Shown: one piece after another, positions 1,418 through 10,268 of the stretch
How positions within the stretch are numbered: position 1 is the first letter of the stretch
How the letters are laid out: every line of letters begins with the position of its first letter
DNA from: Chlorobiota bacterium
GTDB taxonomy: Bacteria; Bacteroidota; Ignavibacteria; Ignavibacteriales; Ignavibacteriaceae
Length of the DNA stretch: 12,165 nt
Direction: 5' to 3'
Assembly (NCBI GenBank): GCA_008363265.1
Contig: RHKR01000026.1
Location: forward strand, 2,436 to 14,600
The notes under the pieces: generated by a model
Told to the model about the DNA's origin: nothing
Seen by the model: only the letters and a program-made list of their open reading frames with translations
The model's database searches: none
Translations under genes and position numbers: made by a program

Positions 1418-2134
1418 ATGAAAGAGATATTCACCGCGGATGAGTTCGCATCAAAGCTCGGAATATCAAAAAGAATACTCGCTGACTGGGAGAAGGAGGA
1501 ACTTGTAAAGCCCTCCGGTACTTCAGATGAGGGAGTTCCCCTCTACACTGCCTGGCAGTTTGAGCGGGGGCAACACCTCAAGAAGCTACACGAGCTCGGC
1601 TACGGGTTCGACGATATTAAAAAGATCATTAAGAAAGTGGGCCTCCCAAAAGTGAGCTCGGAAAACGGAAAACAGAACCTGAACGAGAGCTATCTGACCG
1701 TCGGGCAGATAGCTGAAAGCGTGAAGGTAAGCCCCAGAACCATCAAGCACTGGGAGGAGATGGGGATAATCGAACCCGATATGCGCAGCGAAGGAGGTTA
1801 CCGCCTCTACGCCCGCCGCTGGGTTTTCATCGCCAATCTGATAAAAGACCTCCAGCTCTTCGGCTACTCCTTGGACGAGATAAAAAAGGTGTCCGACTAT
1901 TTCCGCGTGTTTCTCGACCTCTCATCAAACCTCGAGACACACAAGATCGACGACGCGGAAGGAAAACTTAACGAGCTGCTGATCGCGATCGATGGTTTGT
2001 TCGACAAGATGGAGCTCTTCAAAGCCGGGATCTCCCGTTGGGAAGACCTCCTGAAGAAAAAGAAAAAAGAGATAATCACGCTCAAACAGAAAAATTCAAA
2101 ACGCCCGCAGGCGGCCACGGAGGATCAAAAATGA
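1418..2134 (+). CDS. Transcriptional regulator with two tandem MerR-type DNA-binding domains
   Basis: This 238-aa regulator carries two MerR winged helix-turn-helix domains in one chain. The first is at about residues 4-75 (FTADEFASKLGISKRILADWEKEELVKPS, then LYTAWQFER and a GYGFDDIKKII helix). The second is at about 92-162 (YLTVGQIAESVKVSPRTIKHWEEMGIIEP, GGYRLYARR, LFGYSLDEIKKV) and is the better match to the family. A helical C-terminal part (165-225) looks like a coiled coil and ends in a Lys-rich tail. Classic MerR proteins have one such domain and dimerise, so two per chain may allow binding as a monomer or to a longer operator. No Cys-based metal site is visible. The stop codon overlaps the start of the hydrolase gene (ATGA), so the two are translationally coupled and the regulator probably controls that unit. 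Confidence 0.88.
   Translation: MKEIFTADEFASKLGISKRILADWEKEELVKPSGTSDEGVPLYTAWQFERGQHLKKLHELGYGFDDIKKIIKKVGLPKVSSENGKQNLNESYLTVGQIAESVKVSPRTIKHWEEMGIIEPDMRSEGGYRLYARRWVFIANLIKDLQLFGYSLDEIKKVSDYFRVFLDLSSNLETHKIDDAEGKLNELLIAIDGLFDKMELFKAGISRWEDLLKKKKKEIITLKQKNSKRPQAATEDQK
2119..2123 (+). promoter_or_regulatory. Ribosome binding site of the hydrolase gene
   Basis: GGAGG lies 7 nt before the ATG at 2131, inside the last codons of the regulator. It fixes the hydrolase start at 2131, not at the in-frame ATG at 2038, which lies well inside the regulator gene. Confidence 0.75.
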
Positions 2135-3372
2135 GCTTCCTCGACCTTTATTCGAATCTAAAGGAACACTTTAATACTGTTGATCCAATTATAGATATCA
2201 ATGGTCACGATGTAAGAGTGACCAACCACCCCTTCATCAGCGACACTTCGAGGGCCTTCCCCGAGGGAGATGAGTACTCTGAGCTCAATCCTCTGGTGAA
2301 AGCCCTTATGAAGTATTACCTCTCGCAGAATGAGTTCTCCGACCGCTACCTGATGAAACGGCTGAACACCCCTGACAGCACGGTTGAAGAGAACAATTCG
2401 TTCACATTCTCGATGATGAGCGATGAAAAGGCGGCCAATTCTGACACCGCGATCCTCCTTCTGCACGGACTGAACGAACGCGGCTGGGAGAAATACCTCC
2501 CCTGGGCACACCGTCTGGTGAAACTGACGGGGCAACCCGTCATCCTCTTTCCACACGCGTTTCACATGCACAGGGCGCCGAAGTGCTGGTCGGATTTCCG
2601 CCTGATGAAAGAGATATCGAACGAACGGAAAGTGCTCCTCCCGGCAGTTGAGATGTCGAGCCCCATAAATGTCGCCATCTCTTCCCGACTCCAGTTCGTA
2701 CCGCAGAGATTCGTCTATTCAGGACTTCAGACCATCTACGACATCACTAAACTGGCCCAGATGGCTCAGGAAGGTGAGATAGCGGGACTGAAACCGGGCA
2801 CAAAACTTAACATATTCGGCTACTCGATCGGCGCGTTCATCGCCCAGATAGTGATGATGAGCAACCCCCTCGGGCTTTTCAACAGTTCGAAGTGCGTCCT
2901 TTTCTGCGGGGGAACCACCCTTGACAGGATGGAGCCGACAAACAAATACATCCTCGATAGCGAGGCCGCCGGGGCACTGAAGGATTTCTATGTCCACCGT
3001 CTCGAGCAGAACCTTGCCACTGATGACAGACTGAGGGCACTGTTCAGTCCCGACGCGGGCGAAACCTTCCTTTTCAAGTCTATGCTCTCACATGATGCAG
3101 GGCTGATCGCGCGTAAAAGACACCTCGCCAAGATAAGGGACAGGATCTGCGGCATCGCCCTCGATAAAGACCTCGTTATGCCCCCGTGGGCGATCGGCGA
3201 GGCACTCGCGAGCGATCACCCGAGAGAGATATCATTCGACACGGTTGATCTCGACTACGACTACACCCACGAGAATCCCTTCCCCATCCTCACTAAGATA
3301 AGGGACAAAGTCGATGACGGTTTCTCTGCCGTTTTCTCGAAAGCAGCATCATTTTTCAACGGCGCGGAGTGA
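2131..3372 (+). CDS. Alpha/beta hydrolase, DUF6051-like
   Basis: This 413-aa predicted soluble serine hydrolase has no signal peptide. An extended N-terminal region (1-100) precedes the core. The oxyanion-hole strand reads AILLLHGLNERGWEKYLPWA (H112-G113). The nucleophile elbow is IFGYSIGAFIAQ with Ser232. The acid is probably in GIALDKDLVMPP (Asp345 or Asp347), and DYTHENPFP supplies His380, so a Ser-Asp-His triad can be proposed. Length and the LFPHAFHMHRAPKCWSDFR insertion after the core strand remind me of the uncharacterised DUF6051 family; that family name is from memory. The substrate is unknown. The gene overlaps the tandem-MerR regulator by 4 nt and has a good GGAGG site, so the pair is one transcription unit, perhaps induced by the hydrolase substrate. 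148 bp of AT-rich DNA separates it from the cytochrome operon. Confidence 0.85.
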   Translation: MSFLDLYSNLKEHFNTVDPIIDINGHDVRVTNHPFISDTSRAFPEGDEYSELNPLVKALMKYYLSQNEFSDRYLMKRLNTPDSTVEENNSFTFSMMSDEKAANSDTAILLLHGLNERGWEKYLPWAHRLVKLTGQPVILFPHAFHMHRAPKCWSDFRLMKEISNERKVLLPAVEMSSPINVAISSRLQFVPQRFVYSGLQTIYDITKLAQMAQEGEIAGLKPGTKLNIFGYSIGAFIAQIVMMSNPLGLFNSSKCVLFCGGTTLDRMEPTNKYILDSEAAGALKDFYVHRLEQNLATDDRLRALFSPDAGETFLFKSMLSHDAGLIARKRHLAKIRDRICGIALDKDLVMPPWAIGEALASDHPREISFDTVDLDYDYTHENPFPILTKIRDKVDDGFSAVFSKAASFFNGAE

Positions 3373-3520: not shown

Positions 3521-5098
3521 ATGAAAAAAATAGTCGTAATTCTGGTTGTTTTTTTCCTTACCGTTATTAGCGTGATATTGTTTCTCAGACCCAACGAGAT
3601 TCCTCAGAGCCTGACCTCACAATTGAAGGAAAAATACACTCAAAAGCATGTCCCATCCGTTGACCACAAAAAATTCACGGCTCTCCAAAAGAACTTTTCA
3701 CACCCACGGGAAGTGACCGAAGTCTGCATTACCTGCCACACCGAAAGACACAAGGAAGTGATGCAGTCGAGCCACTGGAACTGGCAGAGGGAAGAGTATG
3801 TGAAAGGCCGCGGCATTATCCATATCGGAAAACACAACGCGATCAACAACTTCTGCATTGGCGTCGAAGGTAACGAGCAAAGCTGCGCGAAGTGCCACAT
3901 CGGCTTCGGTATGACCAGCGACCTGAAGGCCCTGACCGACTCGACCAACATAGACTGCCTCGTCTGCCACGACAACTCCGATACCTATGTGAAAGGCTCG
4001 GAAATGGCGGGTGCCCCGGACCCAAAGGTTAACCTGAGCACCGTCGCGCAAAATGTCGGAAAACCAACACGCTCCAACTGCGGCGTTTGCCACTTCTATG
4101 GCGGCGGCGGAAATAATGTCAAGCACGGCGACCTTGAATCATCGATGTTCGAACCATCCAAGGATATCGATGTCCACATGGCTGTCGAGGGGGCAAATAT
4201 GTCATGCGTCGACTGTCACACCTCCCAAAATCACAAGATGAAGGGGAAGGTTTACTCCCTCTCTTCTATGAACCGCGACAGGTCATCATGCGAACAGTGC
4301 CATACCGAGGCACCACACGAAGCGGCAATTCTGAACGAACACACACTTAAGGTTGCATGCCAAACCTGCCATATCCCCGTTTACGCCAAGGTTAACGCCA
4401 CCAAAACCGAGTGGGACTGGTCGACCGCGGGTCAACTGAAAGACGGAAAACCCTTCGAGATAGACGACAAAGACGGTAACCACACCTATCTTTCTATAAA
4501 AGGAACATTCAAGTGGGGCAAAAACCTGAAGCCTGACTACATCTGGTTCAACGGTACTGCCGACCACTACCTCCTCGGAGACACCATAGCAGACACTTCC
4601 AAACCCCTTCAGATTAATACCCTGAATGGCTCTTACTCCGATCCCGACTCGAAGATCACCCCCGTGAAAATTCACAAGGCTAAACAGCCTTACGACCCCG
4701 TTACCAAAATGCTGATTCAACCGAAACTCTTCGCCGACACGAAAGGTGAGGGTGCTTTCTGGAAGGACTTCGACTGGAAGCGCGCCTCCGCTGTCGGTAT
4801 GGCCGAGGTGAACCTCCCCTTCAGCGGTGAGTATTCATTCATTGAAACTGAGATGACCTGGCCCATTAACCACATGGTCTCCTCAAAGGAACTTACCGTT
4901 GACTGTGTCGAGTGCCACTCCCGTAACGAAAGCAGACTCGCGGGACTGAACGACTTCTACATGCCCGCCCGCGACTACTCACCACTGATCGACACCGCCG
5001 GCAACTGGGTGATCATCCTGAGCATCATCGGCGTCTTCGCCCACGGCTCAGCGCGCGTTTACTCCTCCAGAAAACAGAAGAAAGGGGCCTCAAAATGA
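3521..5098 (+). CDS. Octaheme cytochrome c, tetrathionate reductase (Otr) type, membrane-anchored
   Basis: This 525-aa periplasmic multiheme cytochrome has eight CxxCH sites: residues 69-73, 122-126, 146-150, 187-191, 229-233, 257-261, 280-284 and 462-466. The long heme-free stretch before the last site, the segment HNAINNFCIGVEGNEQSC (105-122) and DCLVCH followed by TYVKG fit the octaheme tetrathionate reductase family. In Shewanella Otr the active-site heme has a Lys ligand in place of His and a nearby Cys; Lys158 and Cys112 are my candidates here. Known members reduce tetrathionate and in vitro also nitrite and hydroxylamine; the true substrate here is not shown. Both ends are hydrophobic (4-22 and about 493-509, then a basic tail), so the protein seems tethered by two membrane segments. 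Its stop overlaps the cytochrome b start (ATGA), which supplies the likely electron donor. Confidence 0.9.
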   Translation: MKKIVVILVVFFLTVISVILFLRPNEIPQSLTSQLKEKYTQKHVPSVDHKKFTALQKNFSHPREVTEVCITCHTERHKEVMQSSHWNWQREEYVKGRGIIHIGKHNAINNFCIGVEGNEQSCAKCHIGFGMTSDLKALTDSTNIDCLVCHDNSDTYVKGSEMAGAPDPKVNLSTVAQNVGKPTRSNCGVCHFYGGGGNNVKHGDLESSMFEPSKDIDVHMAVEGANMSCVDCHTSQNHKMKGKVYSLSSMNRDRSSCEQCHTEAPHEAAILNEHTLKVACQTCHIPVYAKVNATKTEWDWSTAGQLKDGKPFEIDDKDGNHTYLSIKGTFKWGKNLKPDYIWFNGTADHYLLGDTIADTSKPLQINTLNGSYSDPDSKITPVKIHKAKQPYDPVTKMLIQPKLFADTKGEGAFWKDFDWKRASAVGMAEVNLPFSGEYSFIETEMTWPINHMVSSKELTVDCVECHSRNESRLAGLNDFYMPARDYSPLIDTAGNWVIILSIIGVFAHGSARVYSSRKQKKGASK

Positions 5099-5763
5099 AA
5101 AAACAGGTTTATATCTACAGATCATTCGAACGCTTCTGGCACTGGACTCAAGCCTTCCTCATCTTTTTTCTGGCCGCGACCGGTTTCGAAGTGCATGGCT
5201 CGTTTACCTTTTTTGGGTATCAAAACGCGGTCGAGTACCACAACATCGCCGCCTATGCATTTATTGTACTTATTGCATTTGCCATATTCTGGCACTTCTC
5301 AACCGGTGAGTGGAAGCAGTATCTGCCGACCTTTACTAACATTAAAGCCCAGATAAACTTCTATCTGATCGGCATTTTCAGCAACGCGCCACATCCTACA
5401 AAGAAAACGGTGCTCAGCAAGCTAAACCCGCTTCAGAGACTCGTTTATCTCGGTCTTAAGCTCCTAGTAATACCTGTCATGGTCATCTCCGGGCTTCTCT
5501 ATATGTTCTACCGCTACCCGCAGAAGGGAAGTGTCGTCGGACTGAACCTCGAGACGATCGAACCGATAGCGCTATTCCACACGGCCGGTGCCTTTGCCCT
5601 CATCGCTTTCATTGTCGTGCACCTTTACCTGATAACGACTGGTCATAAACCGACAACAAACCTTAAAGCGATGATCACGGGATATGAGGAATTGGACGAT
5701 GACCAGGGTGAAAAGCCGGAGAAAACAACAACCGCCCCTGAACCCGTAAAAACTGAAAATTGA
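5095..5763 (+). CDS. Membrane cytochrome b, quinol-to-octaheme electron donor
   Basis: This 222-aa inner-membrane b-type cytochrome is of the FdnI/hydrogenase-b/thiosulfate-reductase-b (cytochrome b/b6 domain) kind. Four membrane segments are visible by eye: about 16-33, 51-68, 117-138 and 158-181. Candidate heme-iron ligands are His16 (ERFWHW), His49 or His67, His162 (LFHTAG) and His176 (VVHLYL), which would allow two hemes. The C-terminal 40 residues are charged, Thr/Pro-rich and probably cytoplasmic. AGGGG lies 7 nt before its ATG, and the ATG overlaps the stop of the octaheme gene, so the two products are probably made together. Quinol oxidation in the membrane and electron transfer to the periplasmic octaheme protein is the expected role; this is inferred from context. 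Confidence 0.88.
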   Translation: MKKQVYIYRSFERFWHWTQAFLIFFLAATGFEVHGSFTFFGYQNAVEYHNIAAYAFIVLIAFAIFWHFSTGEWKQYLPTFTNIKAQINFYLIGIFSNAPHPTKKTVLSKLNPLQRLVYLGLKLLVIPVMVISGLLYMFYRYPQKGSVVGLNLETIEPIALFHTAGAFALIAFIVVHLYLITTGHKPTTNLKAMITGYEELDDDQGEKPEKTTTAPEPVKTEN

Positions 5764-5771
5764 GGACCACG

Positions 5772-6299
5772 ATGAACGAAACTAAATATATGAATCCTTA
5801 TCTGGCAGGCTTCTTCCTGGGCCTGCTTCTGCTGATCACCATTTTTATCACCGGCCGGGGCCTCGGTGCCAGCGGCGCGGTTAAAAGCGGAGTTATAGCC
5901 ACAGTAACCTCAGTGGCTCCCGCGCACACACAGGACTCAAAATTCTACAGCGAGTACATGAAAGAGCACGACGACAACCCCCTGAAGAACTGGCTGGTGT
6001 TCGAAGTGCTGGGGGTTATCTTTGGTGCCTTCATTTCAGGACTCGTATCTAACAGGCTTAACTTTACCCTCGAAAAAATACCGACCGTAACCACCAAAAC
6101 CCGTGTGATAACCGCTCTCATAGGAGGTGCCCTCTTCGGACTCGGTTCGCAACTCGGTCGCGGATGCACCAGCGGCTCCGCCCTCAGTGGTATGGCGGTT
6201 CTCTCGGCAGGAGGCCTGATCACAATGTTCGCGATCTTCGGCGGGGCATATGCCTTCGCTTGGTTCTTCCGTAAATTATGGCTGGAAGGAGGTAAATAA
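5772..6299 (+). CDS. YeeE/YedE family half-transporter 1 (thiosulfate/sulfur transport)
   Basis: This 175-aa protein corresponds to one half of a YeeE/YedE (sulfur_transp, DUF395) carrier. The N-terminal membrane segment (9-27) is followed by a polar stretch (53-72), then segments at about 73-92, 111-128 and 143-166. The family signature GSQLGRGCTSGSALSG holds its only cysteine, Cys132. In characterised TsuA, Cys residues in such motifs line the thiosulfate path; full-length TsuA carries two such halves. The ATG at 5772 is chosen because GAGG (5762-5765) lies 6 nt before it; an alternative TTG at 5760 overlaps the cytochrome b stop and has no site of its own. The next gene, the second half, begins 1 nt inside its stop codon, so the two presumably form one heteromeric carrier. 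Confidence 0.88.
   Translation: MNETKYMNPYLAGFFLGLLLLITIFITGRGLGASGAVKSGVIATVTSVAPAHTQDSKFYSEYMKEHDDNPLKNWLVFEVLGVIFGAFISGLVSNRLNFTLEKIPTVTTKTRVITALIGGALFGLGSQLGRGCTSGSALSGMAVLSAGGLITMFAIFGGAYAFAWFFRKLWLEGGK
6287..6292 (+). promoter_or_regulatory. Strong ribosome binding site of half-transporter 2
   Basis: AGGAGG lies 6 nt before the ATG at 6299, the strongest such site in the window. It sits in the last codons of half-transporter 1 and supports coupled, abundant translation of the YeeE-rhodanese protein. Confidence 0.75.
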
Positions 6300-7483
6300 T
6301 GGGACCGTTAGTACCTGACTTCATCGGAAACGAACTTAACTTTGTTGTGGCTATCCTTATTGGGATCGGCTTCGGCTTCATTCTCGAACAGGCGGGCTTT
6401 TCAACCTCGAAGAAACTCGTCGGCCTCTTCTACGGATACGATTTCACAGTACTCCGTGTGTTCTTTACTGCCGGCATCACCGCTATGATAGGAGTGGTTG
6501 CTCTTGGTCATTTTGGGATGCTCGATCTCAGTCTTATATATGTGAACCCTACATTCCTCTGGTCCGCTATTGTCGGCGGACTCATAATGGGGCTCGGCTT
6601 CGTGATAGGCGGATTCTGTCCCGGCACCAGCGTCTGCGCGGCTGCGATCGGTAAGATCGACGCGATGATCTTCGTGCTTGGCGGTTTCATCGGCGTCTTC
6701 ATATTTGCCGAAGGTTACCCCATGTTCGAAGAACTCTACAAAGCAGAGAACCTTGGTTTCATTACCATTTACGACCTCACCGGCACTTCACAGGGACTTT
6801 TTGCTTTCGGAATGACCACAATGGCAGTCGGTGCCTTCTGGTTCACCACATGGGTAGAGAAAAAGGTAAACAAGAAAGAGAATCCCGAACTGCAGCCAAA
6901 AAAGATCTATCTCGGTCTTGGTCTCACCCTCTTCGTTCTCGGATTCTTCACTCTCTTCATGCCCGAGAGAAGAACAGAATTGCTTGCTGACGCGTCAGTG
7001 GCCGCTACTTCAGTCGAAACCAACACAATGAGCGTCGATGAACTCGCTTTTAGACTTCTCGACAAAGATAAAAAGCTTCAGATAATCGACCTTCGGACCG
7101 CGAAGGAATTCGATAAGTTCTCCCTCCCCGGCGCAACGAACATGACTTTCGACGAGCTTTTCGGAAAGGACGCGCATAAAGTTCTCGCTCTTAAACACAA
7201 AAAGACCCTCTTCATCGCTAACAGCGAAGCCGATGAGAGGAAGGCCGCGTTCATAGCCTCCGAACTTGGTTACAACAACTTCTCGATCCTCGAAGGTGGA
7301 CTTGCGACATTCAAAAAAGAAATTCTTGAATACAAATCAGACAAGGAACCAACCACCCGCCAGGAGAAAGACACCCATATCTTCCGCGTCCGGGCCGCCA
7401 AAGAGCTCCCCGCTTTGATCGCCGCCGCCAAGAAATCCGCCGCGCCCAAGAAAAAATCCACCCGCGTTATTGGGGGATGTTAG
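6299..7483 (+). CDS. YeeE/YedE half-transporter 2 fused to a rhodanese-like domain, ends in GGC
   Basis: This 394-aa fusion has a membrane part (about 13-221, six segments by eye) with the second YeeE signature GGFCPGTSVCAAAIGKIDA (Cys107, Cys113). It is followed by a rhodanese-like domain (about 242-341: MSVDELAFRL, IIDLRTAKEFDKFSLPGATN, LGYNNFSILEGGL). In active rhodaneses a Cys starts the loop after the strand equivalent to TLFIA; here the loop reads ANSEADERK (307-315) with no Cys, so classical sulfur transfer is unlikely. A Lys/Ala-rich linker (366-388) leads to the terminal VIGGC, whose Cys394 is the only Cys outside the transporter motif. The positive loop 187-202 suggests the rhodanese part may be periplasmic, but this is uncertain. 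The gene ends the four-gene operon, its ATG overlapping the previous TAA by 1 nt. Likely role: moving and binding thiosulfate or sulfane sulfur for the octaheme system. Confidence 0.9.
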   Translation: MGPLVPDFIGNELNFVVAILIGIGFGFILEQAGFSTSKKLVGLFYGYDFTVLRVFFTAGITAMIGVVALGHFGMLDLSLIYVNPTFLWSAIVGGLIMGLGFVIGGFCPGTSVCAAAIGKIDAMIFVLGGFIGVFIFAEGYPMFEELYKAENLGFITIYDLTGTSQGLFAFGMTTMAVGAFWFTTWVEKKVNKKENPELQPKKIYLGLGLTLFVLGFFTLFMPERRTELLADASVAATSVETNTMSVDELAFRLLDKDKKLQIIDLRTAKEFDKFSLPGATNMTFDELFGKDAHKVLALKHKKTLFIANSEADERKAAFIASELGYNNFSILEGGLATFKKEILEYKSDKEPTTRQEKDTHIFRVRAAKELPALIAAAKKSAAPKKKSTRVIGGC

Positions 7484-7812: not shown

Positions 7813-9666
7813 TCACATTCCATAATTAAGGTTCAGCCTCACCATCAATCCGGGTTCATAAACCTTGAAGCCGGCTTTGAACGGATCACGGAAATATGAT
7901 AGATGCGACTGATAATTGGCATTGGTGATGTTCTCAACCTCGAGGGAGGCTTTTATCCCTCTGAACTCACCTGAGACACCCGCGTCAAGGCGGTTCCAGG
8001 CAGGAGTAACGGTTTCGCTCACAGCCGCGTCAACCCTTGTCTGGCCATCCGACCAGGTGTGCCTTACAAAGAATACCATGTCCATCCATTTCGGTGAAGT
8101 AAGTTTCGTAACCACCTTCAACGGCAGGATCTCGGCGAGTGGCGTTGCATCACTTCTGTTCTCCGCCCATGTGTATGACGCGAGAATTTCGATGAACCTG
8201 TACTCAAGACCAAAATTCACGCCTGCCAGCATCGCGTTGATGTTGCGGTAGGTGACGAAGTTTGTTCCGCCCGCGGCTTTCCGGTCGAGATAGACATAGT
8301 TCGCGACATGATTCGCGTACAGTTCGAGTCTCGCGATCTTGCTAAGAAGTGTCGCCCGGAGGCCGGTCTTCAGCGGCTGATCAAGGTTTGGATTCCCCAC
8401 CCACGATGAACCTGTCGGTGCCCTTCTAACGGCAACGAAAAGGGCTTCCGTTTCCGGTAGTTCAGCCGCTGCCTCAGCCATCACGCCGAAAGCGAACTCA
8501 GAGCCTATCGCCTGTGAGTAGGCGGCACTCAGCCCCACAACCGGGAAGAGAGCCGTGGTCTTCGGATCGCTCCAGACGCGCTGGTAGTAGCTCTTCACTT
8601 CCTCTTTATCGAGATTGAAGTAAGAAACCCCCGCCTTGCCACCGAAAGTGAAATCACCAGTCTTGATCTGATGCGAAAGCGACGCAAAATACTGATTTAC
8701 ACCCGGCATAAGGGCGTTGTTTATCAGCATCGTCGGCATTTTGATGAAATTATCCGAGTTCCACTTCCTGAAGTACGCCTCATAGAAACTGCCGACCACT
8801 CCGATTGTCAGGTTTCTGGCATCGGTTTCCATCTGCATCATCGAGACACGGAGGTCGTTGTTCATCAGATGGCTGGTGTAGTTGGCGTAGATCTTGTGAC
8901 CCTTGTATGAGATGTTCGCGCTGAAAAGGCGGTTGAACCTCTCATCCATCTGCAGGTAAGGGAATGTAATGTTCTCGGTGTAGGCCACCGACGCGCCGTA
9001 CCTTAAGTTACCTGTTTCACCCTGATACGACACTTCCGCGAGGGTAAAATTGTAGTTGTCTTTGTAGCCGTAAAGCTCGTTGAAGGCCTTGCCGTCACCG
9101 TTGGTGTAGGGGGAGCCTTTAACGAAGTGGAGGGAGAGGCGGTTGTCCTTCATTCCCCCCGCGACCGAAAGGTCGAGTGCCGATGAAGCACCGGCTACAC
9201 CTCCCGCGCTCGCGAGAATAAAGGGCTCTTTACCGGGACTCTTTCTGTGGAGGGAAATAACACCGCCGAGACCCGACTGAAGGCCGCTCGATCCTTTAAG
9301 GAGCTCAAGTGTCTCCATTTCAAGCGGATTTATCCTCGAAACGGGGGCATCCATCCGGTTAACGCACGCGGGGTGAAACCGTTCGCCGTCGATCACGATG
9401 CTGATATCACCTTTCTTCAGACCGTCAGAATAAACATCCTGAGCAAAGAAAACGCCTTTTTTTATGAGTGAGATCCCCCCGTAAGCGAGGAGGTTCTCGA
9501 GGTTATCCCTCTGGATCGTGAGGGAATTGCTGTAAAGCTCCATTTTCTTTCCCGTGATATCAACGGGATCGAACCAATAGACCTTCATGCTGTCGCCATT
9601 CTGCCCGGATGCGAGGAACGGCAAAAGAAGCGACAGGGTAAAATAATTCCATTTCAAGCGGAACAT
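7813..9666 (-). CDS. TonB-dependent outer-membrane receptor, copper (OprC/NosA) type
   Basis: This 617-aa outer-membrane receptor has a signal peptide (1 to about 21, ending LASG-QN) and a possible TonB-box region near WFDPVDITGK. The plug domain (about 45-145) contains DISIVIDGERFHPACVNRMDAP and LEMETLELLKGSSGLQSGLGGVI, and a beta-barrel runs to the C-terminus. The ACVNRMD segment gives CxxxM (Cys101, Met105), and ANYTSHLMNN gives HxM (His266, Met268). In OprC from Pseudomonas, CxxxM and HxM bind copper, and NosA-type receptors share the ACxNRMDxP segment, so copper is the expected cargo. AGAGGA lies shortly before the ATG at 9666. The small Cys-motif membrane protein gene is 49 bp upstream on the same strand and the two look like one operon. 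Substrate is inferred from motifs, not shown. Confidence 0.9.
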   Translation of the reverse strand: MFRLKWNYFTLSLLLPFLASGQNGDSMKVYWFDPVDITGKKMELYSNSLTIQRDNLENLLAYGGISLIKKGVFFAQDVYSDGLKKGDISIVIDGERFHPACVNRMDAPVSRINPLEMETLELLKGSSGLQSGLGGVISLHRKSPGKEPFILASAGGVAGASSALDLSVAGGMKDNRLSLHFVKGSPYTNGDGKAFNELYGYKDNYNFTLAEVSYQGETGNLRYGASVAYTENITFPYLQMDERFNRLFSANISYKGHKIYANYTSHLMNNDLRVSMMQMETDARNLTIGVVGSFYEAYFRKWNSDNFIKMPTMLINNALMPGVNQYFASLSHQIKTGDFTFGGKAGVSYFNLDKEEVKSYYQRVWSDPKTTALFPVVGLSAAYSQAIGSEFAFGVMAEAAAELPETEALFVAVRRAPTGSSWVGNPNLDQPLKTGLRATLLSKIARLELYANHVANYVYLDRKAAGGTNFVTYRNINAMLAGVNFGLEYRFIEILASYTWAENRSDATPLAEILPLKVVTKLTSPKWMDMVFFVRHTWSDGQTRVDAAVSETVTPAWNRLDAGVSGEFRGIKASLEVENITNANYQSHLSYFRDPFKAGFKVYEPGLMVRLNLNYGM

Positions 9667-9715
9667 CTGTATCCTCTCGTTAAATTGATAAAGAGTTATC
9701 TAACTTGTTAAGGGA

Positions 9716-10105
9716 TCAGATCTTCGGAGGTGGTGCCGAGGGGCGAGCAGCGCGGGCAAGCAGCGCGCCGGGGTTGGTGGCAAAATAATCGAAATTTCCC
9801 GTTCCCGGGGTGGGAACTGTCGCCGTTATCAGAATCGAGGGGGGTAGCTCTTTTTGATCGGGGCGTTCCCCTTTCGGCGGAAGTTTTTCGTCGTTGTTTT
9901 CTTCGACAACCACTTTTTCGAGGTTATCGGTGAGTACACAACTGCCGCAGCAGTCGTTAACCTCTTCATCCTTTTCAACGCACAACTCCTCCACGATATA
10001 GTCGTAGTTCACCAGCCAGTCGATGAACGGACCGGTTATACGGAGGTAAGTTAGCGTTACAGTGACCAGCACGAAGACCGTGACGGCCATTCTGAAAAAT
10101 GACAT
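9716..10105 (-). CDS. Small membrane protein with a Cys cluster, partner of the copper receptor
   Basis: This 129-aa protein has one N-terminal membrane segment (about 4-24, FFRMAVTVFVLVTVTLTYLR). A motif of the form ELC-x8-DCCGSCVLTDNLEK follows (about residues 41-60) and holds all four cysteines. A charged, Pro-rich tail ends in SAPPPKI. Small proteins with NYDYIVE..C..KD....C.GKC-like motifs sit beside copper-type TonB receptors in many Bacteroidota, to my recollection, but their function is not established; metal binding is a reasonable inference. I start at ATG 10105, not at the TTG at 10111, because it is the first standard start; no clear ribosome binding site is visible for either. 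The receptor gene follows 49 bp later on the same strand, and dnaB is divergent. Confidence 0.75.
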   Translation of the reverse strand: MSFFRMAVTVFVLVTVTLTYLRITGPFIDWLVNYDYIVEELCVEKDEEVNDCCGSCVLTDNLEKVVVEENNDEKLPPKGERPDQKELPPSILITATVPTPGTGNFDYFATNPGALLARAARPSAPPPKI

Positions 10106-10268
10106 TTGCAAAATTTCAAAAAGGATAAAATAGTCTGCTTAAAAATAATCAATCCCGTTCAGATATTTAAGAATTTCTGTTAAACTTTTTTAGTGATCGA
10201 TTTCAGGGAGGGGAGTTACCCGAATATTGAATATCTTTACTTCCCGAAAAAATTAAAACTTTAGAGAG
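10106..10268. promoter_or_regulatory. Divergent intergenic region between the copper-receptor operon and dnaB
   Basis: This 163-bp AT-rich gap must hold promoters for both directions. I see no clear -35/-10 pair. It contains GGGAGGGGAG (10206-10215), a run of AT-rich words including GAATATTGAATATC, and AGAGAG right before the dnaB ATG. Nothing further can be supported. Confidence 0.35.

Follow-up and report, generated by a model that had tools for sequence, protein, structure and literature searches.

A conserved operon links an OTR-family octahaem cytochrome to a split YeeE transporter and a Cys-tailed rhodanese domain: a candidate module for periplasmic sulfur respiration

We analyzed a 12,165-nucleotide stretch of DNA (the window) from the Chlorobiota bacterium assembly GCA_008363265.1 (contig RHKR01000026.1, positions 2,436 to 14,600, forward strand), whose source genome (G000) is 82% complete. 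Four plus-strand genes are packed at positions 3521-7483 of the window: an octahaem cytochrome c of the OTR family, a cytochrome b, one half of a YeeE transporter (YEA), and the other YeeE half fused to a rhodanese domain (YEB). We read these genes, with a probability of roughly 0.55, as a module that uses quinol electrons to respire sulfur compounds in the periplasm and that includes a tethered sulfur carrier and a sulfur channel. In such a module, the cytochrome b would draw electrons from the quinol pool and hand them to the membrane-anchored OTR, which would reductively cleave S-S bonds of a thionate or polysulfide, most likely converting tetrathionate to thiosulfate. The rhodanese-fold domain, its own active site being unusable, would hold covalently bound sulfur on the Cys at the tip of a flexible basic arm, and this arm would shuttle the sulfur between the OTR active site and a Cys-lined channel formed by the two YeeE halves. 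The product sulfur (thiosulfate or sulfane sulfur) would thereby be imported. The evidence, which comes from sequence comparison, consists of the gene set, its order and its conservation, the loss of one Cys and the retention of another in the rhodanese domain, Cys residues in both YeeE halves, the pairing of the same YeeE/rhodanese kit with a Phs/Psr-like enzyme, and a type of MerR regulator common to both pairings.

The tight packing of the operon (two overlaps and one gap; Table 1) had been described in an earlier sequence-only reading, and the open reading frames (ORFs) and family profiles bore it out; a TTG at 5760 is a possible alternative start for YEA. The window OTR scored 583 bits against TIGR04315 (cut-off 375, profile positions 1-440), also matched PF11783, and has eight CxxCH motifs. 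A PDB sequence search returned the Shewanella OTR structure 1SP3 as its sole match (E 1e-124). In that alignment, from which residue numbers were counted by hand, K201 was the counterpart of Lys153, the haem ligand of the active site, and it was invariant in 11 aligned OTR sequences. An active-site Lys outside the haem motif has been described as the haem ligand (PMC12285233; this and the other papers given by PMC number are cited from parts of their text). Hydrophobic segments lie at residues 4-22 (signal anchor) and 489-507 (C-terminal membrane helix). By these sequence criteria the protein belongs to the OTR family, and tetrathionate reductase activity is predicted only. The cytochrome b matched PF01292 with 104 bits, and its His residues 16, 34, 49, 100, 162, and 176 were invariant in 103 of 103 sequences.

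The transporter is divided between two genes. YEA matched positions 175-309 of PF04143, the C-terminal half of the family, with 78.9 bits, and YEB matched positions 4-163, the N-terminal half, with 54.3 bits (cut-off 27 in each case), in addition to PF00581. The two chains of 175 and 394 residues compare with a single TsuA chain of 330-350 residues (PMC11582611). The only PDB relatives of YEA were structures of TsuA, the thiosulfate transporter. A PDB sequence search with YEB alone gave nothing useful, and in a search with the YEB profile TsuA was not among the best 60 of 69 matches, the significant ones being rhodaneses. Both halves scored far under the cut-offs of the TsuA equivalog profiles; their matches to YedE selenium families were also weak (33 and 29 bits for YEA and YEB, cut-off 350). 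The reading of these genes as a plain thiosulfate transporter was not supported. Confidence in the fold model was low for YEA (predicted local distance difference test score, pLDDT, 66.6; predicted template modeling score, pTM, 0.38) and for the membrane half of YEB, and the fold searches covered YEB residues 237-384 only.

Both YeeE halves have a conserved Cys. Cys132 was the single recurrent Cys of YEA, present in 92 of 92 sequences, and it aligned with C293 of TsuA (alignment to 8J4C and 6LEO; residue number counted by hand). In the 88 complete distinct YEB sequences, Cys occurred in at least 10% of copies in three columns only: C107 (88/88), C113 (81/88), and the terminal Cys (88/88). These counts omit YEB copies shorter than 331 residues, namely L008, L009, L046, L077 (cut), and L105 (two ORFs), as well as L074, which is arranged differently, and identical repeats. 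The conserved pore Cys residues of TsuA are C22, C91, and C293, the latter two of which agree with the alignment. C107 falls in the N-terminal half of the family carried by YEB, and no conserved Cys was found near the YEB N-terminus, where C22 would sit.

The rhodanese domain of YEB has lost its catalytic Cys. At that position, whose register was read by eye from alignments to PDB rhodaneses, 0 of 88 YEB sequences had a Cys (Ala in 58, Gly in 19, Ser in 10, and Asp in 1), and the identity of a catalytic rhodanese was rejected on this count. The C-terminus, in contrast, retains one: GGC stands no more than 3 residues from the end in 86 of 88 copies, and L131 and L132 have GGLCS. YEB had at least 3157 database relatives at E 1e-5, and a GGC end was present in 120 of 120 of the matches listed. 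A Cys elsewhere, past residue 236 but ahead of the final 12 residues, occurred in 20 of 88 copies, with no such column reaching 10%. The last 25 residues held a mean of 6.0 Lys plus Arg compared to 1.7 Asp plus Glu. The fold model was fairly confident for the domain at residues 237-344 and had a pLDDT below 50 for residues 383-394; the best structural matches of residues 237-384 were rhodaneses. The mean net charge was +2.8 for the loop before the last YEB membrane helix and -0.2 for the stretch after it, which by the positive-inside rule places the rhodanese domain outside. Consistent with that location, an N-terminal hydrophobic segment was present in all 30 listed relatives in which the rhodanese is a separate protein. 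Taken together, the charges and anchors suggest that the domain is on the periplasmic side. The loss of the rhodanese catalytic Cys and the invariance of the terminal Cys are new observations, both overlooked in the sequence-only reading, which was otherwise partly supported.

We searched for the operon in two sets of sequences. A search of named GTDB contigs with the window OTR gave 74 loci in a set biased towards close relatives. OTR, cytochrome b, YEA, and YEB with its rhodanese domain were all present in 62 of these, and three further loci (L008, L046, and L077) were cut by contig ends inside YEB. Five had OTR and cytochrome b on the same strand (L045, cut by a contig end, L067, L068, L070, and L072), with YeeE on the opposite strand in L070 and L072. 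Only OTR was seen in three (L056 and L061, cut, and L071), and L074 was arranged differently. The records were labeled Ignavibacteria, Bacteroidota, KSB1, Acidobacteriota, Elusimicrobia, Planctomycetales, Myxococcales, and a Deltaproteobacterium; because every one of them is a metagenome-assembled genome (MAG), single phylum cases may be mis-binned. Loci outside the phylum were found via patterns taken from the window's own OTR, so other phyla were sampled unevenly.

The second, less biased sample consisted of 395 genomes of the same phylum, in which 60 loci in 55 genomes exceeded the OTR cut-off (window included). All four genes were present in 34 of the 60 (window included; YEB of L105 is in two ORFs), and two more had OTR and both YeeE halves with no adjacent cytochrome b. 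These 36 YeeE-linked loci came from 36 genomes, 31 genera, and 14 families (families counted by hand). Wherever cytochrome b, YEA, and YEB all accompanied OTR (98 loci across the two sets, repeated contigs included), gene order was identical. In 26 of the 36 genomes, G000 included, exactly two PF04143 matches were found genome-wide (E <= 0.001), both in the OTR locus; since these genomes hold their sole PF04143 pair there, the arrangement is more than chance. Pairwise divergence across 86 loci was correlated between OTR and YEB (r = 0.91), OTR and YEA (0.79), and OTR and cytochrome b (0.79). The reading of these genes as a quinol-linked sulfur module inherited as a unit was supported across the families and genera of the phylum sample and in MAGs labeled as other phyla. 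The four-gene order sought across phyla was conserved, and the possibility that YeeE lies beside OTR only in this genome was rejected.

At least three arrangements bring YeeE and OTR together: the main operon, L131 and L132, and MAGs of Gallionella and Sulfuritalea. An OTR tree was built from 82 of 126 distinct sequences (every second one from loci with YeeE and cytochrome b, and all others). The OTRs linked to both YeeE and cytochrome b formed one clade (SH-aLRT 97), whose six otherwise-labeled members were all truncated loci, and L131, L132, and the beta-proteobacterial pair fell outside it. The usual type of cytochrome b is not adjacent in L131 and L132; there, downstream of OTR and split YeeE come a multihaem protein that also has membrane segments (cluster 63), a MarR regulator, and an OsmC-like protein. 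The two beta-proteobacterial OTRs have a YeeE-like gene of full length nearby, together with a multi-rhodanese that looks secreted; three rhodanese stretches were found in that of L072, and L074 was read by eye. We also observed shorter OTR paralogues of 455-472 residues (L091, L093, L097, L103, L104, L106, L125, L127, L133, and L135), which lack YeeE and cytochrome b and form a single separate clade together with L071; those of L104 and L106 adjoin several large genes of one cluster.

The same YeeE/rhodanese kit occurs beside a second reductase. A YEB-profile search of the same 395 genomes matched 66 genomes at E 1e-20, and the 35 matches that did not adjoin OTR were examined. A Phs/Psr-like gene set (molybdoenzyme, 4Fe-4S subunit, and NrfD-type subunit) was present in 26 of these 35 loci, and 25 of the 26 sets continue into YEA, YEB, and a rhodanese-like protein; L145 has a Phs/Psr-like set and two rhodaneses of the Cys-tailed type, with no YeeE in view. 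The rhodanese of this PHS module is a separate gene, except in L142, where it is fused to YEB. Counting the PHS sets of L052 and L070, there are 27 PHS-YeeE loci in total, and the PHS-linked rhodanese has a terminal Cys in 26 of them (L150 and L167 from reading overlapping ORFs); the exception, L162, has a short rhodanese ORF without the Cys tail. Among 30 separate rhodaneses (24 PHS-linked and 6 not), 29 end in Cys, which is the sole Cys in 24. As a control, 33 further rhodanese matches unassigned to YeeE loci included 9 that were Cys-ended and 24 that were not, and all 9 belonged to such modules, either as additional copies or as overlapping ORFs. The remaining 9 of the 35 loci were L138 (cut), L149, L153, L155, L158, L169, and the weak matches L170-L172. 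L149, L153, L155, and L158 have a third module without a reductase, made up of a rhodanese (193-308 aa ORF), YEA, YEB, and a rhodanese ending in RMGC.

The two modules also have regulators and neighborhoods in common. A homologous MerR regulator gene precedes OTR (within 212 nt) in 21 of 134 loci and PHSA in 19 of 29, and OTR is preceded by a MarR-type regulator in 18 of 134 (contig repeats included in each count); in the window, neither type is directly upstream of OTR. L050 and L052 each have an OTR module and a PHS module in tandem, and in L070 a PHS-YeeE module with three GGGC-ended rhodaneses is divergent from an OTR-cytochrome b pair that lacks a YeeE of its own. In the YEB tree, OTR-linked copies were apart from most PHS-linked copies. 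The partner label needed 5 changes on this tree, and when well supported branches alone are counted the forced changes come down to 1 (OTR) and 2 (PHS); L131, L152, L070, and L140 were on long branches. These comparisons indicate that two unrelated quinol-linked periplasmic reductases use one YeeE/rhodanese kit and one regulator type. Given the kit and regulator type in common, the simplest account is that both reductases act on sulfur chains that a carrier delivers or picks up, and sharing the kit with a Phs-like reductase favors a thionate or polysulfide over nitrite for OTR. This is a stronger argument for a sulfur species as OTR substrate than the one first offered for it. A bolder proposal, which we hold only tentatively and think somewhat less likely to be right than wrong, is that protein-bound sulfur on the transporter-linked arm, and not mainly free thionates, is the substrate of OTR and of the Phs-like enzyme in this clade, with a carrier-channel unit interchangeable between octahaem and molybdenum reductases.

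Several results weigh against a tethered carrier in a sulfur-respiring module. In the phylum sample, 24 of 60 OTR loci have no adjoining YeeE: 14 have OTR and cytochrome b without YeeE, 13 of which belong to one family, and 10 have OTR alone. Three plasmid loci of Paracoccus and Photobacterium (3 examined of 5 found) have OTR and cytochrome b without YeeE as well. The best NCBIfam match of the molybdoenzyme was PhsA, with 508 and 470 bits for two proteins, below the cut-off of 694. TusA, a candidate cytoplasmic acceptor, was over its cut-off in only 10 of 36 module genomes, and a TusA-type partner is needed by E. coli TsuA. If the substrate of the sister PHS enzyme is thiosulfate, import of thiosulfate would compete with respiration. 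From the literature, Caldithrix encodes Otr as well as Psr/Phs accompanied by two sulfur transferases, and the respiration of sulfur compounds predicted for it found no support in growth tests (PMC5317091); in Dethiobacter, a thiosulfate-raised octahaem protein beside rhodanese genes is SirA-like and not a close OTR (PMC10376724); and the Srr selenite reductase too has rhodanese neighbors (PMC12481199).

The coupling of every OTR to YeeE was rejected on the evidence of the Paracoccus and Photobacterium plasmid loci and the 13-locus family. That family (L078-L090) has small genomes, with OTR-cytochrome b in 13 of 13 loci and no YEB relative at E 1e-20. The claim that the YeeE linkage would settle the OTR substrate was not supported, as OTR-cytochrome b pairs without YeeE are common.

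Other readings of the operon have to be weighed against a tethered carrier. OTR could reduce dissolved tetrathionate while YeeE imports thiosulfate, the Cys tail being thiosulfate-binding or regulatory and not a swinging carrier. OTR takes its name from the reduction of tetrathionate. Thiosulfate is what TsuA (YeeE) imports (PMC11582611), and field data show otr expression rising with tetrathionate (PMC8528874): in a MAG of Ca. Sulfomarinibacter (Acidobacteriota), otr was up 36-fold at day 8 (p = 0.0488), and 1.8-fold, not significant, at day 1, a rise that also agrees, for a relative, with a sulfur substrate in general. However, a free substrate leaves unexplained both the loss of the catalytic Cys with a terminal Cys in 88 of 88 copies and the presence of the same tail beside a PhsA-like enzyme that would use up thiosulfate itself, and we consider this explanation unlikely.

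Selenium (or tellurium) oxyanions are a less probable answer. Both reductases would then reduce selenite and the YeeE halves would form a selenium transporter, in line with the Srr operon, which has a Tat-exported molybdoenzyme and rhodanese-domain proteins (PMC12481199, PMC8528874), and with the YedE matches of YEA and YEB. Those matches are, however, far below cut-off, the PDB relatives of YEA are TsuA structures only, and the best named match of the molybdoenzyme was PhsA, with no SrrA model among its matches (SrrA itself was outside the comparison).

It is quite improbable that OTR detoxifies nitrite or hydroxylamine while YeeE and the rhodanese are an independent sulfur-assimilation pair sharing its promoter. 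Shewanella OTR is able to reduce nitrite and hydroxylamine, according to the title of a 2007 paper, and OTR-cytochrome b pairs do occur without YeeE; against this, at least three arrangements pair OTR with YeeE, a PhsA-like enzyme has the YeeE kit and MerR type too, and an NrfA match above 500 bits was present in 22 of 36 module genomes, G000 among them. OTR as sole nitrite reductase was rejected on the NrfA result; the remaining 14 genomes had no NrfA match of that strength, and a nitrite role is possible there. Reverse flow, a form of sulfur disposal in which sulfane sulfur would leave the cytoplasm through the channel, load onto the arm, and be released as sulfide by the reductase with electrons from quinol, would suit the mostly missing TusA, the lack of a fifth conserved gene for a cytoplasmic acceptor beside the YeeE channel in the neighbor clusters of the loci, the binding of polysulfide chains by Wolinella Sud in the periplasm (PMC3397948), and the match of Sud (1QXN) to the rhodanese part of the YEB profile (E 0.0013), but it is very improbable given that, of the relatives described in PMC11582611, TsuA and SoxT1A act in sulfur import, SoxT1B acts in signaling, and none exports.

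The proposed carrier-channel module was compared with known systems. The window OTR resembles that of Shewanella oneidensis (1SP3) in its whole haem core, eight CxxCH motifs, and active-site Lys, and differs in having membrane segments at both ends and an operon with cytochrome b and split YeeE-rhodanese (Shewanella gene neighbors were outside the comparison). PF04143 and the correspondence of YEA C132 to C293 are shared with TsuA/TsuB (Spirochaeta thermophila 6LEO and 8J4C; E. coli). Unlike TsuA/TsuB, the window YeeE is split in two genes with the C-terminal half first, and its partner is a Cys-tailed rhodanese domain, predicted to be periplasmic, whereas the partner of TsuA is TusA-like and cytoplasmic. 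The arm of SoxY is a C-terminal Gly-Gly-Cys-Gly-Gly motif. SoxYZ carries its sulfur-binding Cys on a swinging arm (PMC11237559), to which the GGC end in 86 of 88 YEB copies, flexible in the model, is similar; in lucinid symbionts, soxY adjoins otr (PMC11237559). The window carrier differs from SoxYZ in having a rhodanese fold, by sequence and fold matches, and in being tethered to a transporter (SoxY itself was outside the comparison). Sud serves Psr and uses a Cys in the rhodanese active site. Wolinella Sud (1QXN) is likewise a rhodanese-type periplasmic sulfur carrier (PMC3397948); in the window family, in contrast, the active-site position holds Ala, Gly, Ser, or, in one copy, Asp, and the Cys sits at the C-terminal end. 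An Otr-cytochrome b561 cluster is in print for Ignavibacteriae Ch128a (PMC7509429), as are Psr/Phs with rhodaneses for Caldithrix (PMC5317091) and in a further paper (PMC12142623). Neither a split YeeE beside OTR, nor the terminal Cys, nor the reductase exchange came up in a full-text literature search, whose coverage leaves out most subscription papers.

Around the operon, matches to promoters and terminators were about as numerous in the window as in shuffled sequence. A DUF6051 gene (354 bits) at 2125-3369 is immediately 5' of OTR. Among the loci compared, DUF6051 adjoins OTR only in the window (and its cut copy, L001), L004, L110, and L111, and so few loci place it outside the operon core. 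Positions 1418-2134 encode a protein with two tandem MerR-type matches, a possible regulator that differs from the MerR preceding OTR or PHSA in other loci. Downstream, a TonB-dependent receptor gene (weak TonB-copper match) is on the minus strand at 7813-10111; it is preceded by a gene whose 131-aa product has a CCGSC motif and matched no family; a link to copper is possible.

Table 1. Operon features in the window
Feature	Position	Strand	Details
OTR-family octahaem cytochrome c	3521..5098	+	525 aa
Codon of K201, aligned with Lys153 of 1SP3 (Shewanella OTR; active-site haem ligand)	4121..4123	+	alignment
Cytochrome b561-type quinol oxidase subunit	5095..5763	+	222 aa; 4-nt overlap with OTR
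YeeE half A (YEA), ATG start	5772..6299	+	175 aa; 8-nt gap after cytochrome b
YeeE half B (YEB) and rhodanese fusion	6299..7483	+	394 aa; 1-nt overlap with YEA
Rhodanese-fold domain, residues 237-344, Ala307 replacing catalytic Cys; predicted periplasmic	7007..7330	+	
Basic C-terminal arm, residues 377-394, predicted disordered	7427..7480	+	fold model, composition
Terminal Gly-Gly-Cys codons	7472..7480	+	conserved in YEB copies

The physiological substrate of OTR has been disputed between sulfur and nitrogen compounds. The operon, together with the kit and regulator type shared with a Phs/Psr-like enzyme, provides a concrete hypothesis for that substrate and a single residue, the terminal Cys, with which to test it. 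If the hypothesis is true, the module would be a sulfur-relay device of many uncultured anaerobes.

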